Shown here: piece by piece, positions 15,380-34,533 of the stretch | How positions within the stretch are numbered: position 1 is the first letter of the stretch | How the letters are laid out: the number at the start of each line of letters is the position of its first letter | NCBI RefSeq assembly: GCF_009758175.1 | Contig: NZ_WRPM01000064.1 | Coordinates: 1-40,801 of the forward strand | Reading direction: 5' to 3' | Length of the DNA: 40,801 nt | DNA from: Nesterenkonia alkaliphila | GTDB taxonomy: Bacteria > Actinomycetota > Actinomycetes > Actinomycetales > Micrococcaceae | Position numbers and translations under genes: made by a program | Notes under the pieces: model-generated | Databases searched by the model: none | What the model saw: the letters and a program-made list of their open reading frames with translations, nothing else | What the model was told of the DNA's origin: nothing

Positions 15380-16465
15380 TCACCGGGCGTGGACGGTGAG
15401 CATCTCCTCCCAGCGAGTGGTGTAGCGCGGGCTCATCATCTCCCGGCGCATCTCCCATTCTGCCGGTGCCCTGAGTCCGCCGCGGCCCAGCCCGATGGAA
15501 TCCGTTCCGGCTCTTTGGCGCACCTGCTGCAGAAGTGGGCCCAGGCTGCGTTCCTGCTGAGGCTCAGTCAGAATGTCCAGCATGGGCTGGGCGCCGGCTG
15601 GGGAGAGGTCGGTCAGGGTGATTCCGGCTTTGGTGTAGCGGGTGCCCTCAGTGATCTTCGGCAGCAGCGCCTTTGCGGCCTGCGAGAGCGTCACTGGATC
15701 ATTGGTCGGACTCGGCAGGGTGAGGGTTACGGAGGGCGATTCGAGCTCCTTGCTGCCGTACCAGGAGGTCATTGCCCAGGCGGTGAGAGTGCGGGCCTGG
15801 CTGTCCCGTGTGTTCAACCGGGTGCAGGCCCGCTGGGCATAGCTGGTCAGCACCTGCTCCATCACCTCTGGAGTGGTCACCGGCGAGGAGAATGACCGGC
15901 TGAACACCAGAGAATCGTGGAAATCCCGTGAGTCCTCCAGTTCAATGCATGCCTGCCCCCGCAGCTCCAGCACAGTGCGCATCACTGGTAATCCGAACTG
16001 CCGCCGGATCATCGGCGGGTCGGCTTCACGGAGCTGCTCGGCGGTGGTGATTCCCAGGGCGGCCAGCTTTTTGGAGGTCCGGGGGCCGATGCCCCAGATC
16101 TGCTGCACCGGAAGCTGTGTGAGCAGCTGTTCGCGGTAGCTGCCCTCTAGGGCCTCCCAGATGCAGACCCCCTTCATTCCGGAGAGTTTTTTGGCAGCAA
16201 GGTTGGCCAGTTTGGCCAGGGTTTTGGTCCTGCCTGCGCCGATGCCCACCGGAAGCCCCAGTCGCTCGGCGATCGCCTGCCGCAGCCCGTGGGCCCATTG
16301 CGCGGCGTGCTGCGTGGTTCCGCTGACCAGGGCGAACGCCTCATCAATGCTGTACTTTTCCACCTCGGCGGAATGCTCCCCGATGACCTGGAGGAACCGG
16401 TGGCTCATATCTCCATAGAGCTCGTAGTTGCTGGAGCGGGCCACCAAACCTGTTTCCCCGCGGTA
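15380..16465 (-). pseudogene. umuC: umuC 3' part (DNA polymerase V catalytic subunit), split by insertion
   Basis: This part encodes residues 69-429 of a Y-family translesion polymerase. It holds the second catalytic acid pair (YSIDEAFALVSG, Asp109-Glu110 in the rebuilt protein), the thumb with LPVGIGAGRTKTLAKLAN and IWGIGPRTSK, the little-finger domain and the C-terminal tail. The first catalytic Asp (residue 10) is on the other fragment at 25362-25565. In the present arrangement an ATG inside the end of the inserted element (16469-16471) opens a 363-codon frame over this part, but the product would lack the palm's first metal ligand and cannot be a complete polymerase. Joining base 25362 to base 16465 restores the reading frame exactly. 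Confidence 0.93.
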
Positions 16466-16507
16466 TTGCATCAGATGCGAGATCCGAACGGGCGTCTGCG
16501 TCAGAAA

Positions 16508-16530
16508 GGCTATCGGTCGTTTCGATAGCC
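16508..16530. repeat. Left-end stem-loop of the element
   Basis: GGCTATCG (16508-16515), seven-base loop, CGATAGCC (16523-16530): a perfect eight-base dyad 43 bases inside the left end. A smaller dyad, GCATC-A-GATGC, lies at the very end (16468-16478). Such dyads at a recombinase-borne end could be recombinase or regulator binding sites. Confidence 0.5.
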
Positions 16531-16577
16531 CCGCGATTTTCCGCGCGACGAGGTCTGACGGGCTGATAGATTCGCAT

Positions 16578-16600
16578 CTAATGCACGATTAGCGCGTTAT
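16578..16600. repeat. Dyad plus GCGCGTTAT motif upstream of the recombinase genes
   Basis: CTAAT-GCACG-ATTAG (16578-16592) is immediately followed by GCGCGTTAT (16592-16600), which recurs inverted near the right end (25343-25351). It lies 20-43 bases before the first recombinase gene, so it may serve both recombination and autoregulation. Confidence 0.4.
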
Positions 16601-16620
16601 GTGGATGGATTGGGTGGTTG

Positions 16621-17739
16621 ATGGGACGAGTTCCACACGGTGCGTCGTCACTGTATCTTGCGGGCGGGGTGTCGTTCCTCAACGCTCATGAGGCCGTGTT
16701 TGAGGCGATGATCGAGGGCTGGCGGATGCAGCAGATCGGTGGCCGACATCTCAAGGAGGATTCGGTGTCGCGCGCTTTGGGCGTGGTCCGGAGGTTCGAG
16801 TCGTACGCGGGCAAGAAGCCGTGGGAGTGGTCCGCGGGCGACTTTGACGAGTGGATGGCGCTGCTGGTGTCGCAACGGAAGGTCGAAGCGTCGACGATCC
16901 GGTCGTACCAGGGGGCGGTGCGCGCGTTCTGCGATTACATCTGCTCGCCGCACTACGGCTGGGTTGACGAGTGCATGGAGCGTTTCGGGACGCACCCGGT
17001 TCAGGTCTGCCATGAATGGAACACGCTCGCGCACCTGCAGGATTACGAGGGCAAGCCGGGGCGACGCCCGTTGACGCGGTCGGAGCTGCAGCGCTTGCTG
17101 GATCATGCTGACGCCGAGGTGACGCGGTTGCTGGACGAGCGCCGCAAGGGTGCTCTGCCTGCGTTCCGGGACGCGACGCTGTTCAAGGTCGTCTACGCAT
17201 GGGGGATGCGGGCGAGCGAGGCGGTTGGGCTTGATGTGACCGACTTCTACAGGAATTCGAAGGCTCCACAGTTCGGGGAGTTCGGTGTGATGCAGATCCG
17301 GCACGGGAAGTCGTCGCGGGGCGGGCCGCCGAAACGGCGGGCGGTCGTGTCGTTGTTCGGCTGGGCGGTTGAGGCTCTTCAGGAGTATGTCGAGCAGGTG
17401 CGTCCGTTGATGGTCCGGGACGGGTCGCCGGCGCTCTGGGTCTCGGAACGCGGGACGAGGCTGCGCACGCGGGAGCTGGCGTCGAGGTTCGCCGTCTACC
17501 GGACGGCGCTGGGGCTGGATGAGGTGTTGACGCCGCACGCGCTGCGTCATTCCTACGTGACCCACCTGATCGAGTCCGGGGTCGATCCCGCGTTCGTGCA
17601 ACGTCAGGTCGGGCACCTGCACCAGTCGACGACGGCGATCTATACGGGCGTGAGCGCGGACTACATGAACACGATGATGAGTCAGGCGATCGAGAAGACG
17701 CGGCACAGGCCGCGCGATGAGGAAGAGAGCGGGCGATGA
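16621..17739 (+). CDS. Tyrosine recombinase of the element (TnpA-like)
   Basis: A 372-residue site-specific recombinase. A SAM-like core-binding domain (about residues 20-110) is followed by the catalytic domain (about 150-350). All catalytic residues are visible: Arg197 in WGMRASEAVGL, probably Lys230 in the beta-hairpin, His306 and Arg309 in PHALRHSYVTHL, His332 in VGHLHQST and the nucleophile Tyr341 in AIYTGVS. It should cut and rejoin the element ends. The ATG at 16621 is taken as start; a TTG sits directly before it. Its stop overlaps the next start (ATGA at 17736-17739), so the two genes are translationally coupled. It corresponds in role to TnpA of Tn554, also a tyrosine recombinase of about 360 residues. 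Confidence 0.92.
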   Translation: MGRVPHGASSLYLAGGVSFLNAHEAVFEAMIEGWRMQQIGGRHLKEDSVSRALGVVRRFESYAGKKPWEWSAGDFDEWMALLVSQRKVEASTIRSYQGAVRAFCDYICSPHYGWVDECMERFGTHPVQVCHEWNTLAHLQDYEGKPGRRPLTRSELQRLLDHADAEVTRLLDERRKGALPAFRDATLFKVVYAWGMRASEAVGLDVTDFYRNSKAPQFGEFGVMQIRHGKSSRGGPPKRRAVVSLFGWAVEALQEYVEQVRPLMVRDGSPALWVSERGTRLRTRELASRFAVYRTALGLDEVLTPHALRHSYVTHLIESGVDPAFVQRQVGHLHQSTTAIYTGVSADYMNTMMSQAIEKTRHRPRDEEESGR

Positions 17740-18092
17740 GACTGATCGGGTTTGAGTGGCGGCTTCGGGAGGTGATGGCGGCGGCGGGAATGTTCTCCAC
17801 GACGAAGCTGGTCCCGCTGCTGGAAGAGCGGGGCGTCTACTTGTCGACGAGCCAGGTATATCGGCTCGCCGCGGAGAAGCCGGAGCGGATGAACATGCAG
17901 GCGCTGGTCGCGCTGCTGGACATCTTCGATTGCACGTTCGAGGAGCTCGCGCCGCGGGTGGTCCTCGGCAGCGCGGTCGCAGCGACCGGGACGACCGATC
18001 CTGGGCCGGAGCGGGGCGATTCGGCGACGAACCGACTCCGGGAGTCGGGCCTGAAGCCGCGTAGGGCGCAGATTCTCCCGCCGGATGCTTGA
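17736..18092 (+). CDS. Small helix-turn-helix protein of the recombination module
   Basis: A 118-residue protein whose first 80 residues look like a Cro/C1-type (XRE, YozG-like) helix-turn-helix domain: VYLSTSQVYRLAAEKPERMN spans the recognition region and ALVALLDIFDCTFEELAPRV is the closing helix typical of this group. The last 35 residues are hydrophilic. It sits between the two recombinase genes, overlapping the first by four bases and the third by eight (ATGCTTGA at 18085-18092), so all three are probably made together. It may direct the recombinases to the ends, like the small TnpC of Tn554, or repress the module. The role is inferred from position and fold only. Confidence 0.8.
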   Translation: MRLIGFEWRLREVMAAAGMFSTTKLVPLLEERGVYLSTSQVYRLAAEKPERMNMQALVALLDIFDCTFEELAPRVVLGSAVAATGTTDPGPERGDSATNRLRESGLKPRRAQILPPDA

Positions 18093-20673
18093 CCCGGTCT
18101 TCGCCGCGCTGACCACGCAGATCGCCGCCGTCGAGCAGGCTCTTCCGCGTGAGCGGATCGCCGAGATCGTGAACGGCTCGTTCCGGCAGCTGCCGGTTGC
18201 CCGCCGGACGCTCGACCTGGTCACGCAGGCACCCGGGCTGCTCACCGCGGCGGATCCGCAGACCACGCCGGCTCTGGCAAGTCTGTTGCTTCGCCTCCAC
18301 GAGGCTGGAGCGCGGACTGTCCGACCGCCGCGTTGCGCACACTGCGGCGGGCTGCGGAAGCTGCTGCAGCGCACGCCGACCGGGCGGATCTGCGCTCCAT
18401 GCGGTCGCCGTCTCGCTTCCAGGAGCGGACTCTGTGATCGTTGCGGGCACACCCGCCGCGTGCAGACAGGGCCCGGTGAGAGCGCGTACTGCAAACGATG
18501 CTGGGTCGACATGAAACCCGAAGCGGCCGAGCGCATCGTCGAGCAAGTCCGCCGCCATCGCCGTGTCGCGACCGCGACCATCCTTCGAGCGGTGGAGCAG
18601 ATGGCGGCGGACGGGAGGGACCGCCGAGTGCGGCTGATGCTCGAGCTGCAGGCCCACGGCGCGGAGTGGTTCTCCGACCCGGCCGCGGGCTCTGTGCTGT
18701 TCGGCACGTTCTACGACCTTCTCCACGCGGACGGCGCGCGTCTGCCCGAACGACGCTGCGGAGGCTGCGGCACCACGCGCACGCTCACCGAACGCGTCGA
18801 GGGACGAGTGAGCTGCCGACGCTGCTACCGGATCGCGCACCATGCCCCCTGCGATGGCTGCGACGACGTCACCAACCTGGAGCGGGTGCTCTCCGACGGG
18901 CGGCGACTCTGCCAACGCTGCACGAACAAGCTCCCCGACGAGAACGCCGTCTGCGTGAGCTGCGGCAACCATCGACTGATCGCCTACCGCAGCCCGGAGG
19001 GCCCGCTGTGTTCAACGTGTCGGAGCTCCTCCCGGCTGGACACCTGCACGGACTGCGGGGAGCTTGCGCCCTGTTTGTTCCACGGCAGCGAGAAAGCGAT
19101 CTGCAAACCCTGCTCCGACAAGGCCAGCGTCGACACCTGCACGATCTGCGGGAACGAGCGGCAATGCCGCTGGCCGGGAACCGCGCGCGCCGCCTGCGAG
19201 CAGTGCTCCAACCCTCGCCAGCCCTGCGTGAGCTGCGGGGAGGTCCGGCTGCGCCACAAGCGCACCGAAGACGGCTCCGGCTATCTCTGCTGGGCCTGCG
19301 TTCCGCCGATCATCGAGACCTGCACAAGCTGCGGAGACGCTCGGATAGTGAACGGCCGGATCGAGGGCCGGCCGTTCTGCCCGCTCTGCTATCCCCGCCA
19401 ACCGGAGTCGTTCCGCCCCTGCACCAGCTGCGGGACCATCACACGGCTGATCGCGAAGCTCTGCCCCCGTTGCCGAGCCGATCAGATGATCCGGGAGATG
19501 GTGCCCGACGAGCTCGCCGCCTCCGATGCACGCATCGCGCATCTGCGAGAGCGGTGGTTCCAGGGTGCTCCGTCGAAGATCGTCTACGCCTTCGAACGCG
19601 GCACCGTCGCCTGCACGCTGATCACCCGAGTGCTCACCGCCCCATCCCTGCGCACTCACGCCTACCTCGACCAGGCCGGCTCGGAGTATCAGACCCGAGC
19701 GGTTCGGTCCGTGCTCATCGACCACGGGCTGCTCCCACCGCGGGACGAGCTGCTCGCCCGGTTCGAGCTCTGGCTCGACAGCGCACTTGCCGAGATCCCC
19801 GACCCGGGTGAACAGCGCACCGTCACCCAATACGCGCGATGGCGACACCTGCGCGCACTGCGCCGCAACACGATGCCGTCCCGATCAGGCCAGCTGTCCT
19901 GGCGGCGGCTCGAGATCGCGGGGATCATCGAACTGCTGGAATGGATCCATACCCGCGGAGGTTCTCTCGTGTCCCTCACCCAGGCGGATGTCGATGAATG
20001 GCTCACCGGCGGCCGACGCCCGTTCCTGCACCACTTCCTGACCTGGACCGCACGGGCCGGCGCATCCCGACCGCTCACCGCTCCACGCCCGCCATCAGGA
20101 GCCTTGAGCCCGCAAGCCATGAGCGACGAGGAACGCTGGCGGCTGCTCGCCGATGTCACCTCCGACCCGTCCATCAACCCGCACACGAAGCTCGCCGCGG
20201 GGCTGATGCTCATGTTCGGCGTCCGGGCGGCGAAGATCGTCCAGTTGCGCGCGGAAGACGTCACCGTCACGGACCAGGCCGTGGTCGTCCGCCTCGGCCA
20301 GGAACCTCTCGTGCTCCCCGCCGAGCTCGCGCCGGCGGCCGCGGGAGCCGCCAGCAACCGCACCGCGCCTCGCATGTTCGTGGAGAGCATCGAACAGGAG
20401 TGGGTCTATCCCGGAACCCGGGCCGGGCATCACATGGCCCCCGACACGCTGAATACCCGGCTCCGCGCTGCCGGCATCCCGCCGCGACTTGCCCGCACCG
20501 GCGCGCTGATAGCGCTCGCGCAGGAACTCCCACCCGTCGTTCTCAGCCGGCTGACTGGCCTGGACATCTCCTCCGCGATCGCCTGGTCCAACGCGATCGG
20601 CGCGAACAGCACCGCCTACGCCGCCGCGGTCGTCGAGCGCGTCGGCATGCCCCTCCCAGTCGTCCTGCACTGA
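18085..20673 (+). CDS. Ten-zinc-ribbon protein fused to a degenerate tyrosine-recombinase domain
   Basis: An 862-residue protein. Residues 1-80 are helical. Two zinc ribbons (CAHC..CAPC, CDRC..CKRC, residues 84-139) are separated by a helical stretch from eight more (residues 225-463) that recur about every 31 residues, giving twenty CxxC motifs. A core-binding-like domain (about 480-660) and an integrase-like domain (about 680-862) follow. Box I keeps an Arg (FGVRAAKIVQL, Arg714). The HxxR box reads RLAR (801-804), the usual GH is missing, and Trp834 seems to replace the nucleophile Tyr; Tyr845 is the only nearby Tyr. By eye it is catalytically dead and likely an architectural DNA- or RNA-binding partner of the first recombinase. 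In place it matches TnpB of Tn554, but that protein is shorter (about 630 residues). Confidence 0.85.
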   Translation: MLDPVFAALTTQIAAVEQALPRERIAEIVNGSFRQLPVARRTLDLVTQAPGLLTAADPQTTPALASLLLRLHEAGARTVRPPRCAHCGGLRKLLQRTPTGRICAPCGRRLASRSGLCDRCGHTRRVQTGPGESAYCKRCWVDMKPEAAERIVEQVRRHRRVATATILRAVEQMAADGRDRRVRLMLELQAHGAEWFSDPAAGSVLFGTFYDLLHADGARLPERRCGGCGTTRTLTERVEGRVSCRRCYRIAHHAPCDGCDDVTNLERVLSDGRRLCQRCTNKLPDENAVCVSCGNHRLIAYRSPEGPLCSTCRSSSRLDTCTDCGELAPCLFHGSEKAICKPCSDKASVDTCTICGNERQCRWPGTARAACEQCSNPRQPCVSCGEVRLRHKRTEDGSGYLCWACVPPIIETCTSCGDARIVNGRIEGRPFCPLCYPRQPESFRPCTSCGTITRLIAKLCPRCRADQMIREMVPDELAASDARIAHLRERWFQGAPSKIVYAFERGTVACTLITRVLTAPSLRTHAYLDQAGSEYQTRAVRSVLIDHGLLPPRDELLARFELWLDSALAEIPDPGEQRTVTQYARWRHLRALRRNTMPSRSGQLSWRRLEIAGIIELLEWIHTRGGSLVSLTQADVDEWLTGGRRPFLHHFLTWTARAGASRPLTAPRPPSGALSPQAMSDEERWRLLADVTSDPSINPHTKLAAGLMLMFGVRAAKIVQLRAEDVTVTDQAVVVRLGQEPLVLPAELAPAAAGAASNRTAPRMFVESIEQEWVYPGTRAGHHMAPDTLNTRLRAAGIPPRLARTGALIALAQELPPVVLSRLTGLDISSAIAWSNAIGANSTAYAAAVVERVGMPLPVVLH

Positions 20674-20710
20674 AATCTGACGATGACGTTTCCAGGGATG
20701 TCACGTCGTG

Positions 20711-20732
20711 AGAATCGGGCGGCACCGATTCT
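20711..20732. terminator. Hairpin between the converging recombinase and mer operons
   Basis: AGAATCGG (20711-20718), six-base loop, CCGATTCT (20725-20732) form a perfect stem between the 3' ends of two converging transcription units. No T-run follows. A bidirectional terminator is the simplest reading. Confidence 0.5.
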
Positions 20733-20898
20733 GCTCGGCGGTCAACTCGTCCTGATCGTGGCCGCGCTCTCCTTCGACATAGGCCACGAACAACACCCAC
20801 GCCGTGTCCGATGATCGGCGTCGGGTGGGAGGGCGTCTGGTGTCCGAGTTCGTCGTTCCGGTCAACCACGTCGTATGACCTTGACGTGCAGGAGCCGC

Positions 20899-21819
20899 TC
20901 AATGCCGCTCGGTCGGCACGCTCGGCCGGTCCCCGGGAGAGTGCGTCGACTGAGGGTCGCAGCAGTCCTCCTCGGTCCTCCGTCCGGAGTTCCGACGGCG
21001 TTGATGAAGGAATCCGCTTAGTAGCACGATGAGCACCACGGTGGTAGACAGGCCGGCGATGACGCCGGTGTTGCTTTGGAGCCAGTTCGATATCGTCGCC
21101 GAGACAGCGGCGACGTCGGTGCGCCCTGCGGAAGGGGCATCGCCGACGACAACTGGAAACCAGTACCAAGCCAGGTAGACGCCGGTGAGGATCAGGACGG
21201 CGGCGGTGACCTTGGGAACGAATCGTGTCAGGGCGGCGATCCGCCTGGACAGCACAGAACCGGCTACGGCGGCGACCACGGCGACAAGCAGCAGGACGGT
21301 GGCGGAGCCGGCAGCATAGATGGCGAAGACGAGGAGCAGCCCGACGAAACTGGCTGTCGCCTGGGCCTGGGCGATGACCGCGAGGAGTACGCCGAAGGTG
21401 CACGACAGCGAGGCCGCGGCGTAGCCGACGCCGAAGACGACCATGCGCACGGCGCTGGGCAGCCGTTCGATTGCGCGGCCGGGTATGCCGGGAAGCCGGA
21501 GGGACATAGAGCGTCCGGCTAGCATCGCCCCGCCGAGCAGCACCAACAGGATCCCGACGGCGAGGCCGAGGGCTGGGGCGGCCTGGATCAGGCCCCGTGC
21601 GCCGGCGCTTACCGCGACGCCAGCCAAGGCGAGCGTGCCCGCAAACCCGATCGTCAGCGCGAGGCCAGCCCGTAGGGCGCGCAGCAGGCGCACCGGGGCT
21701 GAGGAAGAGGCGGCGTCGCCCAGCGCATGGGTGATCCAGGCCGGGAGCAGCGCGAAGCCGCAGGGATTGACGGGGGCGATCATCCCGGCGGCGAAGGCAA
21801 GGGCGAGGAGTCCGCCCAT
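20899..21819 (-). CDS. CcdA/DsbD-type membrane protein in the mer operon
   Basis: A 306-residue protein with about seven membrane helices and the marks of CcdA, which carries electrons across the membrane to extracytoplasmic thiol proteins. Cys20 in MIAPVNPCGFALLP and Cys140 in AASLSCTFGVLL are the redox pair expected in helices 1 and 4. A cytoplasmic tail after residue 272 carries an extra vicinal pair (EEDCCDP, Cys286-287) not typical of CcdA. It is last in the mer operon, three bases after the thioredoxin-like lipoprotein gene, so the two should act together: CcdA would keep the lipoprotein's CxxC reduced, or the pair may move Hg(II) inward in place of MerP/MerT. The second idea is inference. 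Confidence 0.82.
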   Translation of the reverse strand: MGGLLALAFAAGMIAPVNPCGFALLPAWITHALGDAASSSAPVRLLRALRAGLALTIGFAGTLALAGVAVSAGARGLIQAAPALGLAVGILLVLLGGAMLAGRSMSLRLPGIPGRAIERLPSAVRMVVFGVGYAAASLSCTFGVLLAVIAQAQATASFVGLLLVFAIYAAGSATVLLLVAVVAAVAGSVLSRRIAALTRFVPKVTAAVLILTGVYLAWYWFPVVVGDAPSAGRTDVAAVSATISNWLQSNTGVIAGLSTTVVLIVLLSGFLHQRRRNSGRRTEEDCCDPQSTHSPGDRPSVPTERH

Positions 21820-21822
21820 CGC

Positions 21823-22341
21823 TCAGGCCCCGGCCTTGTGGAGCGCGGAGACGATCGTATCGGCGTCGGGGTCGGTGGCGCGGAAGGTCACCTGTCCGTC
21901 ACTGTCGACGATGATCAGTGTAGACAGCGCGGCGACCCCGAAGCGCTGGGACAGCGCCGCGCCCTCGTCGATGGCGGCGGGGACATGCACGGCGTCGACG
22001 TACTCCATGAACCTCTGAATGGTCTCGGTAGGTTCGCGCGGATCCATGTCGACGGCGAGGAACTGGGCATCGATGCCGGCCTCCTCGGCCGCGGCTGCCG
22101 CCTGACCGAGGGATCGGACTCCGCCGACGCATTCGCCGCAGCCGACGGAGAAGAAGAACACCGCGGTGGGCTTCCCGGCGGCGGGCAGGCTGATCCGCTG
22201 AGCGTCGATGCTGGTCACCGTCGCGGCGGTGGCAGTCTCGGCAGAGACGGGATCCTTATCAACGGTGCCGCAGGCGGTCAGGATGAGCGAGCCTGCGAGC
22301 AGGAGGGTGGCGAGCGAACGACGGGCGCGGGAGCTGATCAT
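21823..22341 (-). CDS. Thioredoxin-fold (TlpA-like) lipoprotein in the mer operon
   Basis: A 172-residue extracytoplasmic protein. A basic start, hydrophobic stretch and lipobox LILTAC give lipidation at Cys24. The thioredoxin-like fold begins near residue 55; FFFSVGCGECVGG contains the CxxC pair Cys68-Cys71, and the cis-Pro region is replaced by AALSTLIIVDSDG, so it is a divergent member. It should sit on the outer face of the membrane. Its ATG overlaps the stop of the MerF-like gene (ATGA at 22338-22341) and it precedes the CcdA-like gene. Gram-negative mer operons use periplasmic MerP to catch Hg(II); this lipoprotein could fill that role in a single-membrane cell or reduce oxidised thiols. 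Confidence 0.83.
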   Translation of the reverse strand: MISSRARRSLATLLLAGSLILTACGTVDKDPVSAETATAATVTSIDAQRISLPAAGKPTAVFFFSVGCGECVGGVRSLGQAAAAAEEAGIDAQFLAVDMDPREPTETIQRFMEYVDAVHVPAAIDEGAALSQRFGVAALSTLIIVDSDGQVTFRATDPDADTIVSALHKAGA

Positions 22342-22637
22342 TGGTTCTGTTCGCCCTTCGGGTCGGTGCGGTGAGCGGATTCGGTGGGCGGGCAGCAGTC
22401 AGGTTCGACACGGCCGCGGCGGGTTCGGCGGCGGACGACGACGAGCAGCACGATCGCGAGGAGCGCAATGCCCACGCCGATCACCCACGGGTTGCCGAGA
22501 AGGAGCCCGCCGATGCCAGTAAGCATTCCGCCGGCGATGAGCACGGGCAGCGCGCAGCAGATCGTCATGAGGAGCACGGCACCGGCTCCCAGGAGTAGGC
22601 CACCGCCTCGCGTTCGGTCGTCGTGTTTGGAGGTCAT
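22338..22637 (-). CDS. MerF/MerT-like mercuric ion transport protein
   Basis: A 99-residue protein with two membrane helices (about residues 12-45 and 50-70). A vicinal pair, Cys27-Cys28, lies in the first helix (VLLMTICCALPVLIAGG), and a second pair, Cys81-Cys82, lies in the cytoplasmic tail (EPDCCPP). This two-helix, two-pair plan is that of MerF, in which Hg(II) passes from the membrane pair to the cytoplasmic pair and on to MerA; MerT has three helices. I start it at ATG 22637; a TTG overlapping the merB stop at 22670 is possible. It lies directly downstream of merB. Sequence identity to named MerF proteins was not measured, so the family name rests on architecture. Confidence 0.78.
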   Translation of the reverse strand: MTSKHDDRTRGGGLLLGAGAVLLMTICCALPVLIAGGMLTGIGGLLLGNPWVIGVGIALLAIVLLVVVRRRTRRGRVEPDCCPPTESAHRTDPKGEQNQ

Positions 22638-22666
22638 AGCGTTCTCGAATCCTTCTGTGTCGCGGG

Positions 22667-23317
22667 TCAACAGCAGCGGGGACAGTCGTCGGCCACCGGG
22701 GTGTCGTCCTGAAGCAGGTCGAGCAGGCTCGTTGTGAGCTCGTTGCCGATCCGGTAGGCCTCGGCCACCGACACCACCTCGGCACCGGGATGCTCAGAGA
22801 GCCACCCGGTGGCGTCGTCGACGGAGGCGAAATAGTGCACCTGGTTGCAGAAGGCCGAGCGGATCGAGGTGATCTGCTCCAGGTTCACCAGCGACACCAC
22901 GGCGCTCGGGGGTGTGACGCCGGTGACACCGGCAACCGGATCGATGGTGACGCGGATCGTCTCTCCGCTGGCCGGGGAGACGGACTCCACGCGCGCTGGG
23001 CGATCGAGGAGGGCCGGGAAGATGAGGGTGTCCAGGGCGCACCAGGTGTAGAGCTCCTCACCGTCGACGGTGAACCGGTGCGGTGTAGGGCGCAGCGTGA
23101 GGCCCTGGCCGACGATTCGGCCCTGGTCGTCGTACTCGGTGTCCTGCATCGCGGCCAGTCCGAGCCGTACCTCGTCGATCGTGCGGCCCGCAGCCACGGA
23201 CAGCTGTTGGACGGTGACGGGGTCACCGTCGGCGAGCAGCCGCAGCAGCGGGATGAGCAGGCCGGTCTCTCCCAGTCGGCTGAGCCGCTCGGGCAGTTGC
23301 ATGCTGAGGTCAGACAT
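22667..23317 (-). CDS. merB: Organomercurial lyase (alkylmercury lyase)
   Basis: A 216-residue enzyme that breaks the carbon-mercury bond of organomercurials, releasing Hg(II) for MerA. The catalytic trio is in place: Cys93 and Asp96 in YTWCALDTLIF and Cys157 in SAFCNQVHYFAS, matching Cys96, Asp99 and Cys159 of the plasmid R831b enzyme. An N-terminal winged-helix-like domain (about residues 8-60) precedes the catalytic core. The C-terminus ends CPRCC, adding three cysteines that might pass mercury onward. The ATG at 23317 has GGAGGA eight bases upstream, which rules out the longer frame. It follows merA by 20 bases. Its presence means the operon covers organic as well as inorganic mercury. 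Confidence 0.94.
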   Translation of the reverse strand: MSDLSMQLPERLSRLGETGLLIPLLRLLADGDPVTVQQLSVAAGRTIDEVRLGLAAMQDTEYDDQGRIVGQGLTLRPTPHRFTVDGEELYTWCALDTLIFPALLDRPARVESVSPASGETIRVTIDPVAGVTGVTPPSAVVSLVNLEQITSIRSAFCNQVHYFASVDDATGWLSEHPGAEVVSVAEAYRIGNELTTSLLDLLQDDTPVADDCPRCC

Positions 23318-23337
23318 CGTGGGTTCCTCCAGTTCGT

Positions 23338-24762
23338 TCACGCGCAGCACGACAGGAGCGACGGGTCGGTGGTGAAGGCCTTGGCGGCGATCCGGATGCC
23401 CTCGGCCATGGTCAGGTAGGGGGCCCAGGCGTCGGCGACCTCGGCGACCGTCTTGCCGAGCACGTGGACCCCGGCGGCGGCGAGCTCGCCGGCGTCCTTG
23501 GCGACGGCGGTGATGCCGAGGATCTTCCCGGTGTCGGCGTCCACGACGATCTTGACGAAGCCGCGGGTGTCGCGGTTGACCAGTGCGCGGGGCACGTGGT
23601 GCAGGGGCAGGACGCGGCAGTCGCAGCGGATCCCGGCGGCGACGACGTCCTTCTCGGTCATCCCGACCGCGCCGATCGCCGGGCCGGTGAACGTCACCCT
23701 CGGCAGTCGGGCGTAGTCCACGGCCCGATCGGCGTCGGCGAACGCGTTCTCGGCGACGAGGGTGCCGTGGTGGGCGGCGACGTAGACGAACTCGGGGTGG
23801 CCGGTCACGTCGCCCGCGGCCCAGATCCGCGGGTGGGAGGACTGCATCCGGTCGGAGACGACCACCTCGCCGAGGTCCCCGGTCTTGACCCCGACCCTGT
23901 CGAGGCCGAGCCCATCGGTGGCCGGTCGTCGTCCGAGGGCGACGAGCACCTGGTCGGCGCGGAACTCCTCCCGGCCGCCGGCGACGTCCGCGGTGACGAC
24001 GGCCTGCCCGGTCGCGGCGTCGCGGGACACCCGCGTCGGGAGCGCGCGGCGGACCACCCGGATGCCCTCGTCGGCGAACACCTCCTGCAGCGTCCTGGAC
24101 ACCTCCGGCTCCTCCTTCGACGCGAGCCGGGACCGGACCAGCACGGTGACCTGGGAGCCGAGCCGGGCGAACAGCTGCGCCTGCTCCAGGGCGACGTAGC
24201 CGCCGCCGAGCACGAGCAGGGACTCAGGGAGTTCGGTCAGCTCCATCGCCGTGGTCGAGGTCAGGTACCCGGTCTGGTCCAGGCCGTCGATCGGCGGGGC
24301 CCACGGCCGAGAGCCGGTCGCGACCAGGTAGTGCCCGGCCTCGATCGTCTCGGTGCTCCCGTCGTCCCCGGCGACCTGGAGGACCGGTGCGTCGGGGGTG
24401 CCGGCGAACGCGGCGTCGCCGCGGCGGACGGCCCAACCGTAGGAGTCGGCGACGTCGGCGTACTTCTCGCCCCGCAGCGACTCGACCAGCGCCTGCTTCC
24501 CGGCGATCAGGGCGGGCATGTCCACTGGCCCCGCCGTCGTCGCGATCCCCGGGAACCGGTCGGCGGCGTCGGCCGCGGAGTGCCGTGCGTCGGCCGCGGC
24601 GATCAGGGCCTTCGACGGCACGCAGCCGGTGTTCACGCAGGTGCCACCGAGCGTCCCGCGCTCGATCATCACCACCGACTTGCCGAGCGTGGTCGCGCGG
24701 ATCGCGGCGGCGAACGCACCACCGCCCGATCCGATGATGGCGAGGTCGTACTTCGTGGGCAT
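23338..24762 (-). CDS. merA: Mercuric reductase
   Basis: A 474-residue flavoprotein disulfide reductase that reduces Hg(II) to volatile Hg(0) with NADPH. FAD motif LAIIGSGGGAFAAAIRA opens the protein, the redox pair is Cys42-Cys47 in GGTCVNTGCVPSK, the NADPH domain has LLVLGGGYVALEQAQL, and a second FAD segment reads RIWAAGDVTGHPEF. The C-terminus LLSCCA carries the vicinal pair Cys472-Cys473 that hands Hg(II) to the active site of the partner subunit, which separates it from lipoamide dehydrogenase. There is no N-terminal NmerA (HMA) domain. The ATG at 24762 has GGGAG five bases upstream. It is the first gene of the operon, next to the MerR-type promoter. Confidence 0.96.
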   Translation of the reverse strand: MPTKYDLAIIGSGGGAFAAAIRATTLGKSVVMIERGTLGGTCVNTGCVPSKALIAAADARHSAADAADRFPGIATTAGPVDMPALIAGKQALVESLRGEKYADVADSYGWAVRRGDAAFAGTPDAPVLQVAGDDGSTETIEAGHYLVATGSRPWAPPIDGLDQTGYLTSTTAMELTELPESLLVLGGGYVALEQAQLFARLGSQVTVLVRSRLASKEEPEVSRTLQEVFADEGIRVVRRALPTRVSRDAATGQAVVTADVAGGREEFRADQVLVALGRRPATDGLGLDRVGVKTGDLGEVVVSDRMQSSHPRIWAAGDVTGHPEFVYVAAHHGTLVAENAFADADRAVDYARLPRVTFTGPAIGAVGMTEKDVVAAGIRCDCRVLPLHHVPRALVNRDTRGFVKIVVDADTGKILGITAVAKDAGELAAAGVHVLGKTVAEVADAWAPYLTMAEGIRIAAKAFTTDPSLLSCCA

Positions 24763-24801
24763 CGCAGCTCCCGTCACTTGGGTTTCTCTTCTTTCTCGGC
24801 C

Positions 24802-24833
24802 ATACTGGACCTTCCAGTGCAGGGGAAGGTCAA
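24802..24833 (-). promoter_or_regulatory. MerR-type promoter and operator of the mer operon
   Basis: On the minus strand a -35 TTGACC (24828-24833) and a -10 CAGTAT (24802-24807) are separated by 20 bases, the long spacing typical of MerR-activated promoters. A perfect dyad ACCTTCC-N8-GGAAGGT (24809-24830) fills the spacer. The merA start is 40 bases downstream. Confidence 0.85.
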
Positions 24834-24866
24834 GAAGGCTTCTGCCGAAAGAAAAGGGGGCCTGCG

Positions 24867-25256
24867 ATGCGCATCGGGGAACTCGCCGAGCGGGCGGGAA
24901 CGACGGCGAAGACGCTGCGGTTCTACGAGGAGCAGGGCCTGCTGCCCCCGGCCGAGCGCACGCCGTCCGGATACCGCGACTACGCGCCCGAGACGGCCGC
25001 CCGGATCGACTTCGTCCACCGCGGCCAGGCCGCGGGCCTCACCCTCGCCCAGATCCGCCAGATCCTCGACATCCGCGACGGCGGCGCTGCTCCCTGCGAG
25101 CACGTGCGCGATCTCCTCGACGCGCGCCTCGCCGAGATCGAGCAGCAGATCGCCCAGCTCACAGCGCTCCGAGACACCATCGCCGAGCTCAGGCACGACG
25201 CCGCGCAGCCCGACCCCGACTCGTGCAGCGCGGACCAGGTCTGCCGGTACCTGTAG
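24867..25256 (+). CDS. merR: MerR-type mercury-responsive regulator
   Basis: A 129-residue dimeric regulator. The winged helix-turn-helix is at residues 1-70 (MRIGELAERAGTTAKTLRFY, then RTPSGYRDY), followed by the dimerisation coiled coil (about 80-110). Three cysteines, Cys77, Cys120 and Cys126, stand close to the positions of the Hg(II) ligands Cys82, Cys117 and Cys126 of Tn501 MerR, supporting mercury sensing. Without metal it should hold the divergent mer promoter silent; with Hg(II) it should untwist the 20-base spacer. The ATG at 24867 has AAGGGGG upstream. It is the last gene before the right end of the element and is transcribed towards that end. Confidence 0.88.
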   Translation: MRIGELAERAGTTAKTLRFYEEQGLLPPAERTPSGYRDYAPETAARIDFVHRGQAAGLTLAQIRQILDIRDGGAAPCEHVRDLLDARLAEIEQQIAQLTALRDTIAELRHDAAQPDPDSCSADQVCRYL

Positions 25257-25321
25257 CTCACGGAAAATCCTCTCGGCTCTCCCAAGCGACGAGAACGGAA
25301 AGTCGTGCAGAATCCCCCGTC

Positions 25322-25351
25322 CGCCAAATAGCGCCAAATCAAATAACGCGC
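25322..25351. repeat. Right-end direct repeats and inverted GCGCGTTAT copy
   Basis: CGCCAAAT occurs at 25322-25329 and 25332-25339 (period ten bases, one helical turn), followed by ATAACGCGC (25343-25351), the inverted copy of the left-end GCGCGTTAT. This is a plausible arm-type binding array for a tyrosine recombinase within 40 bases of the junction. Confidence 0.5.
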
Positions 25352-25361
25352 ACTACCAATA

Positions 25362-25565
25362 CCGGGGGGCGGTCGGAGCCAGTTTGAACCAGGGCTCGCC
25401 CACGGTGATGCCGAGCCGCTTGGCCTCCGGGCTCATGGCTACTGCGCAGCCGTCATTATTGGACAGCACCACCACCGGTTTCCCGGTCAGGGCCGGGTCG
25501 AAGATGCGCTCGCAGCTGGCGTAGAAGCTGTTGACATCGACCAGCGCCACCAAGTGCTGAGTCAT
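25362..25565 (-). pseudogene. umuC: umuC 5' part, split by insertion
   Basis: Encodes residues 1-68 of the Y-family polymerase. VALVDVNSFYASCERIFDP holds the first catalytic Asp (residue 10) and the steric-gate Tyr region; VVVLSNNDGCAVA and LGITVGEPWFKL are further finger and palm segments. Reading continues two codons into the element and stops (Tyr-Trp-stop), giving a 70-residue fragment. The ATG overlaps the umuD stop (ATGA at 25562-25565), the normal umuDC coupling. The rest of the gene is at 15380-16465. Confidence 0.93.
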
Positions 25566-25993
25566 CGCAGGCTGTGCAGACACATATAGGCCACACCCCA
25601 GACCGCGAGCTCGGAGAGCTCCGGCACCTGGATGTCCGGGTACTCAGGATTCGCGGCCTCCAGCAGCACCCCGTCCGCGGTGAGCCGCAGCCGCTTCACG
25701 GTGAACTGGCCGTCCAGGACAGCAACCACCACATCGCCGTCACGCGGCCGGGTTCCCTTGCGGATCAGCAGGTGGTCACCATCGCTGATCCCAGCACCGG
25801 TCATCGAATCCCCGCTGACTCTTGCGATGAAGGTAGCCGGAGGGTCGTGAATCAGGTGCTCCTGGAGATTGATGCTTTCGTGCACAAAGTCCAGGGCCGG
25901 AGAGGGGAAGCCTGCCGGCACAGCAGTAGGCATCATCGGCAGCTCCGCTGCAGCTGCCGATGATGCCACCGCTCTCAGCTCAGATACTCTCAC
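25562..25993 (-). CDS. umuD: UmuD-type LexA-like autoprotease (S24)
   Basis: A 143-residue SOS mutagenesis protein. Self-cleavage would fall in the Ala27-Gly28 bond of PAGFPSP; the catalytic dyad is Ser63 (SGDSMTG) and Lys100 (FTVKRL). The Ser-Lys spacing of 37 and the 35 residues from cleavage site to Ser equal those of E. coli UmuD. RecA filaments trigger cleavage to UmuD', which then partners UmuC. Here umuC directly downstream is interrupted, so UmuD has no intact local partner. I take the GTG at 25993 as start because an ATG at 26008 would lie within the apparent -10 element and LexA-like box; the ATG pair at 25933-25936 would lose the cleavage arm. Confidence 0.88.
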   Translation of the reverse strand: MRVSELRAVASSAAAAELPMMPTAVPAGFPSPALDFVHESINLQEHLIHDPPATFIARVSGDSMTGAGISDGDHLLIRKGTRPRDGDVVVAVLDGQFTVKRLRLTADGVLLEAANPEYPDIQVPELSELAVWGVAYMCLHSLR

Positions 25994-26007
25994 CCGCCCA
26001 GTATGCA

Positions 26008-26023
26008 TCGAACATAGTTACGA
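26008..26023 (-). promoter_or_regulatory. LexA-box-like sequence in the umuD promoter
   Basis: TCGAAC-ATAG-TTACGA has one perfect half of the actinobacterial SOS box (TCGAAC-N4-GTTCGA) and four of six bases in the other half. On the coding strand it lies between a TTGTAT -35 and a CATACT -10 separated by 18 bases, where LexA binding would block transcription. Confidence 0.5.
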
Positions 26024-28007: not shown

Positions 28008-29711
28008 TTATCGGCCTACCCGCCCGAACAGCGAGGCGATGGGCGCTACCACCAGTGCTCGGGTGGCCAATGCCGCTGCGATGATCACTGCTAGGGAGAG
28101 TGCGAAGAGCCAGAAGCCGGCCCAGTTGGTGGCGTCCTGACCGGTGTAGATCAGGTTGAGGTTGCGCAGGGCTCCGGTGGCGAAGACTAGGATCACATGG
28201 ACCAGGATGAAGGCGGTGAAGTAGATCATCACCGGGAAGTGCACCGCCCGGGCCGCCTCCACGGGGAAGGCCTTGTTCAGGGCCTGGTTATTGGCAGGCC
28301 ACAGCCCGGACATCCGAACTCCGGTGAGGATCGCCAGAGGTGCGGCGATGAAGATAGTGGTGAAGTAGGCCAACTCCTGCAGGGAGTTGTAGTGGGCCCA
28401 TTCGCCATGGGTGGGCCAGTCCAGGGAGGCGTACTGCAGCCCGGCGGAGAGCGCATTGGGGAAGACATCCCAGCTGGTGGGCACCACCCGCTCCCAGTAG
28501 CCGGTGGCGAAGAGCAGGATCACAAAGATGACCCCGTTGAGCACCCAGAGCAGGTCCAGGCACTGGTGGAGCCAGATGGTCAGGCTGATCTTGCGCTTCT
28601 TATTCCATTTAGGGGTCCAATACGCCTGGGGCCGGGCTTCGGTGCGGATCTGGATGCCGGTCTTGATGATCAGAATCATCAGGAACGCATTGAAGAAATG
28701 GGCCCAGTTCAGCCACCACGGATACCCCCGTGGCGCATCAGGCTGGGAATACTGACCCGGATAGGACTCCAGGAAACTGGTACCGGCGGAGGTGCCTAGG
28801 AACCACCGGGCGCTGAGCACCAGTATCACGGCCAGTACGACGACGCCGCCGGCTCCAGCAGCTGCCAGCACACCCCATTGGCGCAGGGTCCTGCCCGCAA
28901 GGGTCCGCGCCGGTGCGCGCTGGGGTTTTGGGGCGACAGAGACTCCACCACCGCCACCGGCACCGGCACTAGCCTTGGCTTCGGCCGGGGTAGGGGTAGG
29001 GGTGCCCGAGGCCAGAGCGCCGGCCGCCTCGGAAACCTTCCCAGCGGGCTTGCCGGTGAGAAGGTCCTGGGACTGTTCCGCCGCGGGCGCCGGGACAGGG
29101 GTGGCGCCCAGGCCGCGGCGCCGAGCTGGTGTTGGTGTCGGTGCAGGCGTTGATGCAGGTGCAGGTGCTTCGGCCCCGGGAGTCTCGGGCTCCGGTGCAG
29201 ATCTCTGCGCCTCTGCCTTGCGGGCTTCAGCTTCTGCTTCGGACCTGGGCAGGCCCCGGCGGCGGCCGGGCCGGTGTGGGGGCAGGCCCACGGCTGTGAA
29301 CGGCTGGGGCTCTGGAGTGGCCGGGGACTGCTGAGCAGAGGCCGGCCGGGCCGAGGCTGGCTGGGCAGCCTCGGCTGGCGCTGGTGCTGCTGCGACTGGT
29401 GTTGGTGCTGCAGTCTCCGGCTCCGCGGCACGTGCCGCTGCCTCGGCCTCAGTCCGGGGCAGGCCCTGGCGGCGGCGCGGAGCTGCCCCTGCTGCGCTGT
29501 GCTGGCTCGCTGCAGTGGTACTGGGCTTGGGTTCCGAAGACTGACTCACCGCAGCTTCGGCTTCGGCAGCCGGTGCGGAATTCGAATCCGCGGGATCCGG
29601 GGCTGCAGAATTCGAGGCTGGGGGAGCCGGTGCTGGTTGTGCTGCGCGGGCCTGGGCTTCGGCCTCGGTGCGGGGCAGGCCTCGGCGGCGGTGATGCGGA
29701 TTGGGGGTCAC
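28008..29711 (-). CDS. Cytochrome b/b6-domain membrane protein with a long Pro/Ala-rich N-terminus
   Basis: A 567-residue protein. Residues 1-270 are low complexity (Pro, Ala, Glu) and hold three copies of a basic-acidic motif [15 protein letters not shown] (about residues 8-22, 79-95, 150-166) plus a partial fourth near 197. Residues 275-567 form a membrane cytochrome b domain with about five helices. Possible haem ligands are in [20 protein letters not shown] and the His pair of [16 protein letters not shown], 14 residues apart as in b-type cytochromes. It starts with GTG overlapping the EtfA stop (29708-29711), so it is coupled to etfA. The likely role is to take electrons from EtfAB or the dehydrogenase to menaquinone; this is inferred from context. 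Confidence 0.8.
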
Positions 29712-30685
29712 TGTGCCTTGGCCTTGATGGTTTCGATCAGTTGGGGCACCACCTCGAAGGCATCGCCGACGATCCCGAAGTCCGCGATGTCAAAGATCGG
29801 AGCCTCCGGGTCCTTATTGATCGCGACAATGGTCTTGGCCGTCTGCATTCCAGCCTGGTGCTGGACTGCACCGGAGATCCCCAGGGCGATATAGAGATCC
29901 GGGGCCACACTGACTCCGGTTTGGCCCACCTGCAGCGAATACGGGGCATAGCCGGCATCCACGGCAGCCCGGGATGCGCCCAGGCCGGCACCCAGGGCAT
30001 CGGCCAACTGTTCAGCCAGCCCGAACCCTTCCTTAGAGCCCAGTCCGCGCCCACCAGAGACCACAATCTTGGCGCTGCGCAGATCCGGCCGGGACGAGGC
30101 CTCCACGTTCTCAGCAAAGCCGGTGATCACAGCTGCTGCAGACTTTGGCTGCGCAGCATCCAGGGTGATTACCTCAGGCTGGGCAGCCTCAGCACGGGCC
30201 TCCACGGCGCCTTCGCGCAGCGTGATGATCAGCGCACCGTGAGTGGGAGCCGATTCCGTGGTGAACGCTGAGCCGTAGACAGAATGCTCAGCCACCACCC
30301 CCTCGGCATCGCGGTGAACGCCTACCGCATCGGCAGCCACAGCAGATGAGGTGCGCACCGCCAGCCGGGCAGCGATATCGCGGCCGTCAATGTCATTGGG
30401 CACAAGCACTGCCTCCGGGTCAGTGGCCTCCCAGGCGGCGGCCACTGCCTCCAGTGCTGGGGCAGTCAAGGTGGTGGGGGCGTCGTCGTTCTCGGTGAGA
30501 TAGACCTTCGCGGCCCCGAGCTCGCCGGCGGCCTGGGCAGCGGCCTGACCCTGACCAGCACCGGCCACCAGTACACCGACTGGGGTGCCCAGCTGCGCGG
30601 CGGCTCCTAAGAGCCCGGCGGCACTGCCCACCAGTTCGCCGGAGGGCAGCACCGGAAGGAATACCAGAACATTCTGCTCAGCCAT
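29708..30685 (-). CDS. etfA: Electron transfer flavoprotein, alpha subunit
   Basis: A 325-residue FAD-binding subunit of ETF. The C-terminal FAD domain shows [20 protein letters not shown], the segment [20 protein letters not shown] and GAVQHQAGM, all diagnostic of EtfA; the N-terminal half is the Rossmann-like domain that pairs with EtfB. ETF accepts electrons from flavin dehydrogenases in the cytoplasm. Here the natural donor is the GlcD-like enzyme in the same operon and the acceptor may be the coupled cytochrome b protein. The ATG at 30685 lies five bases after the etfB stop with AAGGTGGT upstream. Confidence 0.95.
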
Positions 30686-30690
30686 CGGTC

Positions 30691-31464
30691 TCAGACCACC
30701 TTCTTCTCGATCAGATACTCAGCCAACCGCTTACCGGCATCACCCTCATCTGTGATCTTCTCCCCAGCCGTGCGGGCCGGAGTCTGGGAGACCGAGAGCA
30801 TAATCGAGCGCGGCACATCAGCTGAAGCGTCCACCCCTAGGTCCGCCAGGGAATAGGTCTCAAGCGGCTTCTTCTTAGCCTGCATGATTCCTTTGAAACC
30901 CGGGAACCGGGGGTCAGGCAGCCGCTCGGTCACTGAGACCACCGCAGGCAGCTGAGCCTGCACACTCACCGTACCCCCATAACCAGCACGCTCACCGGTG
31001 ACCGCCTCAGCGCTGATCTGCAGGGAATCCAGACTGGTGGCATGAGCCACCCCCAGCTGCTCCGCGACCATCGCCGGGAGCAGCCCGCCAGCACCATCGG
31101 AGGAGGCATCCCCGGCGATGACCAGATCGAAGCCGATCTTCTGCACCGCAGCAGCCAGCACCTGCGCGGTCAGGGTCAGATCAGCACCCAAGAGGGCCTC
31201 ATCCACTACGTGATGCGCCGAATCCCCGCCCATCGCCAGAGTCTTGCGCAGAGTGGACTCCGCTGATTCCGGACCCATGCTCAGCAGGGCGATCTCCACC
31301 TCATCAGCAGACTCTGCATAGGACACCGCTGCCTCTACAGCCCGGCCGGTGATCTCATCGAGGACCTTCTCGCTTGCCTCACGATCCGCCAGACCTGTGG
31401 TCAGATTCAGCTTCCGCTCCCCGTAGGAGTCAGGTACCTCCTTGACCAGCACCACAATCTTCAT
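30691..31464 (-). CDS. etfB: Electron transfer flavoprotein, beta subunit
   Basis: A 257-residue ETF beta subunit opening with the typical [19 protein letters not shown]. The AMP/nucleotide-binding region is around [20 protein letters not shown], followed by the recognition loop region ([16 protein letters not shown]). I start it at ATG 31464, with AGGAG eight bases upstream; the TTG before it is not needed. It follows the HbpS-like gene by three bases and precedes etfA by five, so the three are one transcript. Whether this ETF belongs to the ordinary or the bifurcating class cannot be settled from sequence by eye. Confidence 0.94.
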
Positions 31465-31467
31465 CAA

Positions 31468-31893
31468 TCAGTCTCCTAGCGTGTCCGCGCCCAGCGCCTC
31501 CAGCACTGCCGCAGCGACTTTAGCATCCTGCGCCGGCGGGCCCCCGGCCACACCGAGGCCGCCTACCAGCACACCATCGAATACTATCGGCACCCCGCCC
31601 GGAATGCGGGTCAGCACTCCGCCGGTCCCGTTCTCCATGGCGGTGGCCAGCTCAGGGTTGACAGCTGCTGAGGGTTTTCGGGTGGAGGCCGCAGTATTGG
31701 CCTTCCGGCGGGAGGTCTCCACACTGTGCGGGGTCATCCCGTCTGCGCGGCCGTAGGCCACCAGGCCCAGGGCGGGGTCGACCACAGTGGCGCAGAGCTT
31801 CAGGCCCCGCTCGGCACCGATCTCGATGCTGTGCTGCACAGCCTCGGCGGCCTTGGTGTAGGTGATGGCGGGAATATTGGTGTAAACGGACAC
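31468..31893 (-). CDS. GlcG/HbpS family protein
   Basis: A 141-residue protein of the GlcG/HbpS fold. Family pieces are TYTKAAEAVQHSIEIGAERG, the strand LKLCATVVDPALGLVAYGRA, ASRRKANTAA-like helix and GGVLTRIPGGVPIVFDGVLV followed by GGLGVAGG. Members bind haem or small molecules and often lie beside glycolate or lactate oxidase genes, with no settled function. The GTG at 31893 is preferred because AAGGAG sits five bases upstream; the GTG at 31899 is too close to it. No signal peptide is seen. It lies between the dehydrogenase gene and etfB in the same direction. Confidence 0.85.
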   Translation of the reverse strand: MSVYTNIPAITYTKAAEAVQHSIEIGAERGLKLCATVVDPALGLVAYGRADGMTPHSVETSRRKANTAASTRKPSAAVNPELATAMENGTGGVLTRIPGGVPIVFDGVLVGGLGVAGGPPAQDAKVAAAVLEALGADTLGD

Positions 31894-31917
31894 AGTCACT
31901 CCTTCAGGATGTCAGGG

Positions 31918-34533
<2,616 letters not shown>

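Follow-up and report, generated by a model that had tools for sequence, protein, structure and literature searches.

The locus

We analysed a stretch of 40,801 nucleotides from Nesterenkonia alkaliphila (NCBI RefSeq assembly GCF_009758175.1, contig NZ_WRPM01000064.1, positions 1 to 40,801; hereafter the window), in which the host umuC gene is interrupted by a mobile element carrying three adjacent genes and a mercury-resistance cargo (Table 1). The three genes, here called the trio, encode a tyrosine recombinase that we call TnpA, a small XRE-type helix-turn-helix protein, and ZRC, our name for a zinc-ribbon catalytically incomplete recombinase-like protein. Several poorly understood transposons, among them the strand-biased circularizing integrative elements (SEs) and the GInts, include a recombinase-like partner that lacks an active site.

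An array of zinc ribbons

ZRC contains 20 CxxC motifs (residues 84, 103, 117, 136, 225, 244, 256, 276, 290, 309, 321, 340, 352, 371, 381, 402, 413, 432, 446 and 460), whereas 2,000 shuffled versions of the protein contain 2.1 on average and 10 at most. Pairing of these motifs gives ten ribbons, of which two stand apart (first motifs at 84 and 117) and eight form an array (225, 256, 290, 321, 352, 381, 413 and 446) with steps of 29-34 residues, confirming an earlier sequence-only reading of this DNA that had described ten ribbons, eight of them regular with a period near 31. Across 24 long members of the family, 32 of the 40 ribbon cysteines are invariant or at least 90% kept, and the double zinc ribbon families DZR and DZR_2 score on the window protein only under the Pfam cut-off. 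Judged from these sequence features, the modules are probably zinc-binding. The helical units that precede ribbons 1-2 and ribbons 3-10 were compared as a candidate duplication, which is unconvincing: their local score of 39 was matched by 12 of 500 shuffles.

A survey of ribbon number and catalytic residues across homologues, suggested by the same reading, found an array of variable length and catalytic loss throughout. Three ribbons are commonest among the relatives, and ten lies near the top of the range. The first set comprised 33 homologues of at least 480 residues, which carry 6 to 20 CxxC motifs; it left out shorter pieces, the near-identical loci L048-L053 and any row whose last 300 residues duplicated those of another. 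The second set comprised the 54 of 56 loci with a full C-terminus, read as stop-to-stop frames in loci extending about 1.5 kb to each side of the match. Here, 28 frames have 6 motifs, with lower counts of 0 (two frames), 1 (one), 2 (one) and 5 (three) and higher counts of 7 (four), 12 (three), 14 (two), 15 (four), 16 (two), 18 (three) and 21 (one). With frames delimited in this way and loci this short, low counts may reflect truncated frames, and single surplus motifs may be extragenic.

Zinc ribbons commonly mediate contacts with protein or RNA, and the C-terminal part of ZRC persists across arrays of different length. Both points could be explained if the array were a scaffold for a host factor or a transcript, with the C-terminal domain alone touching DNA. 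Against this, the ribbon regions are basic (51 Lys/Arg against 29 Asp/Glu, a net charge of +22 over 309 residues), which is suggestive only; we regard a scaffold as distinctly unlikely.

Relatives of ZRC occur in 234 of 72,556 plasmid records (tblastn, E limit 1e-5). Counting fragments, a phylum sample of 396 genomes gave matches in 23 (E<=1e-10), and a C-terminal profile at E<=1e-20 gave them in 65 of 394 genomes from the class and in 37 of 297 from the order. A phage origin was rejected, as none of 50,697 phage records matches ZRC and viral_contigs yielded a single relative, with none in two further scans using other members.

A recombinase-like domain without its catalytic set

The C-terminal domain of ZRC likely has a recombinase fold, as predicted structures indicate. 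The models match XerD, Cre and topo IB over about residues 571-775; the full-length model is of low confidence past about residue 760, leaving the last part of the domain less certain. A ZRC profile of 31 rows matches XerD (E=2.5e-5), and a PHROG integrase match (E=2.8e-5) covers residues 575-797. Within this region the Phage_integrase stretch (690-797) matches under the Pfam cut-off only, and a 64-row ZRC profile searched against the PDB found no recombinase, in conflict with the 31-row result.

Catalytic loss in this domain is a family-wide trait. We surveyed the five canonical positions (Arg, His/Lys, Arg, His/Trp, Tyr) in 85 distinct C-termini (87 rows): 65 keep one canonical residue, 18 keep two and 2 keep none, so that the domain described earlier as apparently dead never has more than two of the five. 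The residues named in that description, R714, R801-L-A-R804 and W834, are all present in the window protein; Arg714, however, is not conserved in the family, with R in 17/85 and P in 45/85. The remaining positions are occupied by H (2/85) or K (1/85) at 801, R at 804 (80/85), G at 825 (76/85) and W (53/85), H (23/85) or Y (1/85) at 834. Trp834 had been placed where the nucleophilic Tyr is expected. A weak alignment of the ZRC and TnpA profiles (E 0.093) sets R804 opposite R310 and Ser835 opposite Tyr342, with Trp834 one residue before, and Tyr occurs at 835 in 0/85. Thus, the nucleophile is missing from ZRC in either register, as had been claimed, with the expected position shifted by one residue.

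The sequence-only reading had missed Tyr845, which is kept in 84/85. A displaced nucleophile at this residue is unlikely. It would form part of a working, rearranged recombinase in which R804 is retained, W or H at 834 serves as the box III residue and Tyr845 attacks the DNA, and the conservation of all three (80/85, 76/85 and 84/85) fits such an arrangement, as does the fact that the box III residue is Trp in Cre and His in XerD. We nevertheless find it highly improbable: the first catalytic Arg position holds R in only 17/85, the spacing of 804-834-845 is 30 + 11 residues (82/87 rows) against 23 + 9 for 310-333-342 in TnpA, and the weak alignment sets Tyr342 opposite residue 835.

The ratio of nonsynonymous to synonymous substitution rates (dN/dS) over the whole ZRC gene is 0.19 against locus L056 and 0.22 against L054, and over residues 573-862 it is 0.14 and 0.24, respectively. 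Comparison with the distant L059 gives 0.28 and 0.33 at a dS above 2, near saturation. The corresponding values for TnpA are 0.10 and 0.11. These low ratios indicate purifying selection on the inactive domain, less strict than that on TnpA. Broken copies do exist, for example in L053, L055, L060 and a second copy in the N. alkaliphila genome, as would be expected if ZRC were a decaying remnant or an annotation artefact. This idea is extremely improbable, and we reject it on the low dN/dS and on conservation, seen in the ribbon cysteines and in the matches across the genomes of the class.

A complete recombinase and its two neighbours

The active site of TnpA (R198, K231, H307, R310, H333 and Y342) is complete in 31/31 aligned rows, which represent 29 loci after near-identical copies were dropped. 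This bears out the earlier description of the recombinase encoded two genes upstream of ZRC as active in its residues. The small protein between them is of the Cro/C1 helix-turn-helix type by Pfam and has no NCBIfam match. TnpA was found in 11 of the 396 phylum genomes (E<=1e-30), and at 13/13 loci of this sample, the window copy and a second copy in its own genome included, an XRE gene and a CxxC-rich ZRC frame adjoin it. Conversely, 12 of the 23 phylum genomes with a ZRC match have no TnpA at E<=1e-30.

The second trio of the N. alkaliphila genome (L002, G000:C8, about 29223-32106) is more distant and broken, with a TnpA about 45% identical and stop codons in ZRC. A Pseudonocardia plasmid (L004, 428-8544) has two recombinase genes followed by two tandem XRE-ZRC pairs, beside a dprA piece, and a Rhodococcus plasmid (L009, 176-8406) has two trios on opposite strands, facing away from each other.

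Ends, copies and insertion sites

Near-identical copies of the element, with metal-resistance genes, are found in different actinobacterial genera. At 99.9% identity, the block 16454-25364 recurs in Microbacterium nanhaiense (L048), in Kocuria soli (L052), in Enemella evansiae (L053) and, as far as 25361, in Microbacterium sp. VKM Ac-2870 (L050); the ZRC protein shows 99.9% identity to that of Microbacterium sp. C7 (L049) and 99.7% to that of Nesterenkonia massiliensis (L051). The left-end pattern YTCYCSGCGGTATTG and the right-end pattern TATTGGTA, the latter read inward, occur together in 10 of 11 close copies examined, and the ten copies with both ends measure 7,197 to 10,176 bp. The copy without the left end is L049, in which the left end and most of TnpA are gone to the left of position 9584 and ZRC is intact. 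A TATT motif lies at inward position 1 of the right end and related ones at 14 (3/5 copies examined) and 29 (5/5). As CGG sits outside the TATT at most right borders, this border is uncertain by 3 bases. The end motif of the close copies did not reveal ends in the distant copies L004, L005, L006, L057 and L059.

Ten insertions fall in three kinds of target: umuC, dprA and a DUF7882 gene. No target duplication was seen at the ten junction pairs, within the 3-base uncertainty of the right border. Removal of the element leaves a frame running through the junction in 10/10 copies, which is weak evidence in GC-rich DNA, where a second open frame occurs in 7/10 of the joined pieces; profile matches on both flanks are better evidence of the target. 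In the window, L003 and L051, umuC is split so that positions 1-54 or 1-55 of the IMS profile precede the element and those from 62 or 63 follow it, and in L055 only the downstream half matches umuC, the upstream frame having 21 residues. Strong dprA matches lie downstream of the element in L048, L052, L053, L054 and L056. Upstream, they are weak and sub-threshold in L048 (E 0.031), L054 (0.0042) and L056 (0.0042), and no profile match was found in L052 and L053. In L050 the upstream half matches DUF7882 (positions 1-54, E=2.1e-18), and the downstream half gave no match. Relative to the insertion point, the sites share T at +8 and G at +13 in 10/10, and C at -3 and G at -2 in 9/10 each; because ten sites cover only three gene contexts, a long target motif stays a lead.

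Among the more distant copies, a dprA piece lies left of the trio in L059 and L004, starting at about profile position 39 compared with 42-44 in the close copies, a Peptidase_S24 gene of the UmuD/LexA type in L057 and L058, an annotated umuD in L006, and a DNA ligase fragment in L005. The left flanks of L060 and L061 have no family match, and the other plasmid loci have no gene of the dprA or umuD type annotated left of the trio. The 60 bases left of the insertion are identical in L052 (K. soli) and L053 (E. evansiae) despite their different genera, which may reflect a more extensive mobile region around dprA that the two have in common.

Table 1. Features of the mobile element and its surroundings, in window positions.
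Feature	Position	Strand	Evidence or remark
Whole mobile element (trio and mercury-resistance cargo)	16454..25361	.	8,908 bp; 99.9% identical block and ends
Left end, TTCCCCGCGGTATTG	16454..16468	+	pattern YTCYCSGCGGTATTG in 10/11 loci
Right end, inward reading TATTGGTAGTGCGCG	25347..25361	-	TATTGGTA in 10 copies
TnpA, tyrosine recombinase with complete active site	16618..17739	+	PF00589 E=2.6e-24
XRE-type helix-turn-helix protein, overlaps both neighbours	17736..18092	+	118 aa; PF13443 E=6.8e-11
ZRC	18085..20673	+	862 aa
ZRC ribbons 1 and 2 (residues 84-139)	18334..18501	+	CxxC positions
ZRC ribbons 3 to 10, regular array (residues 225-463)	18757..19473	+	CxxC positions; short strands in full-length model
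ZRC core-binding-like helical domain (about residues 573-660)	19801..20064	+	structure matches
ZRC catalytic-domain-like region without catalytic set (about residues 676-862)	20110..20670	+	
ZRC W834 codon	20584-20586	+	
ZRC Y845 codon	20617-20619	+	
Two cargo genes flanking the thioredoxin-like gene	20899-21819, 22338-22670	-	no Pfam or NCBIfam match at the thresholds used
Thioredoxin-like cargo gene	21823-22341	-	Redoxin PF08534
Organomercurial lyase MerB	22667..23350	-	NF009710 294.8 bits, cut-off 193
Mercuric reductase MerA	23338..24777	-	TIGR02053 549.8 bits, cut-off 454.45
MerR-family regulator	24867..25256	+	PF09278, PF13411
Interrupted host umuC, C-terminal part	15380..16453	-	IMS profile from position 62, IMS_C, DUF4113
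Interrupted host umuC, N-terminal part	25362..25565	-	IMS profile 1-55
Host umuD	25562..26008	-	NF007621 E=1.4e-40

A proposed non-catalytic subunit of a transposition module

We consider it probable that the trio is the recombination module of a site-specific tyrosine-recombinase transposon from Actinomycetota in which TnpA is the only catalytic subunit and ZRC a non-catalytic, DNA-binding structural subunit. In transposition, TnpA would perform the strand exchanges, and the recombinase-like domain of ZRC would sit on DNA beside it in the synaptic complex. The ribbon array would contact additional sequence, which could be the element's subterminal TATT motifs or the target flank, and the XRE protein would act as a regulator of expression or direction. 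That the ribbons are positively charged and the right end has TATT motifs suggests binding of element ends by the array. The sequence-only reading had proposed that the array could read an extended DNA or RNA target and position the active recombinase; its interpretation of ZRC as a whole is partly supported.

The role proposed for ZRC draws on an analogy with Tfp of the SEs and GinC of the GInts, which have a recombinase fold without RHRY and belong to the recombination core. According to the main text of a report on these elements (PMC10214605), Tfp is a core protein with a recombinase fold, its gene could not be deleted and the authors concluded that the entire operon is essential; all four GInt genes are reported as essential. 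This bears on the thought that ZRC is a regulator outside the strand-exchange complex, a DNA-binding protein with a recombinase fold that controls expression or the timing of excision. A recombinase-like fold is found in a phage regulator, MrpR of SPbeta, which is among the structure matches of ZRC. However, the operon already has a helix-turn-helix protein, ZRC stands beside TnpA at 13/13 loci, and the comparable GInt protein is described as required for recombination; we see a regulator of this kind as rather unlikely. To our knowledge, MrpR has neither a ribbon array nor a trio.

If ZRC is a structural subunit, its array might further be, in what would be a novel class of transposon, a modular DNA reader of variable length, in which about 3 to 10 ribbons set the reading distance along the target or element end and gain or loss of ribbons retargets the element, for example between umuC and dprA. 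We hold this extension to be unlikely. The lone complete recombinase and the repeat array of variable length make the role of ZRC testable by ribbon removal, and an assay is practical because the borders of the element are well defined and ten insertions, spread over three kinds of gene, have been mapped.

Relation to described elements

The trio and its habit of inserting in umuC are already known, as Romaniuk et al. (2018, PMC6305408) described trios beside umuCD on Antarctic Arthrobacter plasmids as 'XER modules', the third protein being named site-specific recombinase XerC. These have the same operon of tyrosine recombinase, XRE regulator and second recombinase-like protein, and the same umuCD insertion with variable cargo; in the window, umuC is split between IMS positions 55 and 62, with mer genes as cargo. 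Their plasmid pA8H1 is our locus L006, where the third gene shows 35% identity to ZRC of the window. A term search of the main text of that paper finds mention of neither ribbons nor missing catalytic residues. Searches of open-licence PMC literature found no paper on a transposon protein that joins a ribbon array to an inactive recombinase. Within the limits of these searches, the ribbon array with its varying length, the family-wide catalytic loss, the ends, the dprA and DUF7882 targets and the near-identical copies across genera are additions made here.

The element resembles SEs in having a recombinase-fold protein without RHRY beside recombinase genes, in target specificity and in resistance cargo. 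SEs, as the main text of PMC10214605 presents them, differ in having IntA, Tfp, IntB and Srap, with two RHRY recombinases, and in occurring in Gammaproteobacteria; here we find one complete recombinase gene among the element genes tested (two cargo genes being without a family), a helix-turn-helix protein and a ribbon array. The terms 'zinc' and 'ribbon' are absent from that main text. GInts and the integron-like elements of Pseudomonas are likewise multi-recombinase modules with an incomplete member, GinC (PMC5385486, PMC4542609); the Pseudomonas integron-like elements insert in rulB, a umuC relative. GInts have four genes, ginABCD, and two complete recombinases, as against three genes and one here; the main texts of both papers, whose cases are from Proteobacteria, do not contain 'zinc'. 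RIT elements have three adjacent complete recombinases. The single complete recombinase sets the present element apart from SEs, GInts and RITs, and also from Tn554.

Tn554 has one specific target, radC. It makes no target duplication, and insertion is similarly specific and without duplication at our ten junction pairs. Tn554 and actinobacterial Tn554-like elements also pair a short with a long recombinase gene, and Van Houdt et al. (2012, PMC3414803) report catalytic motifs for both recombinases. The Tn554 family has two catalytically complete recombinases, whereas here TnpA is complete and ZRC is not. A small third protein of the TnpC type also characterizes that family; the small protein of the trio is the Cro/C1-type helix-turn-helix protein described above. 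Identity of ZRC with the long recombinases of that study is unsupported by five plasmids of its table, a partial test: pBD2, FB24 plasmid 1 and pRHL3 have no match to the ZRC family, pRHL2 has a weak fragment (1.1e-10) and pREL1 has one match (5.3e-50). Near the trio of one further locus (L010, 10765-13394) lie a different recombinase of 743 residues and then a DUF6262 protein, which by annotation may represent a Tn554-like pair.

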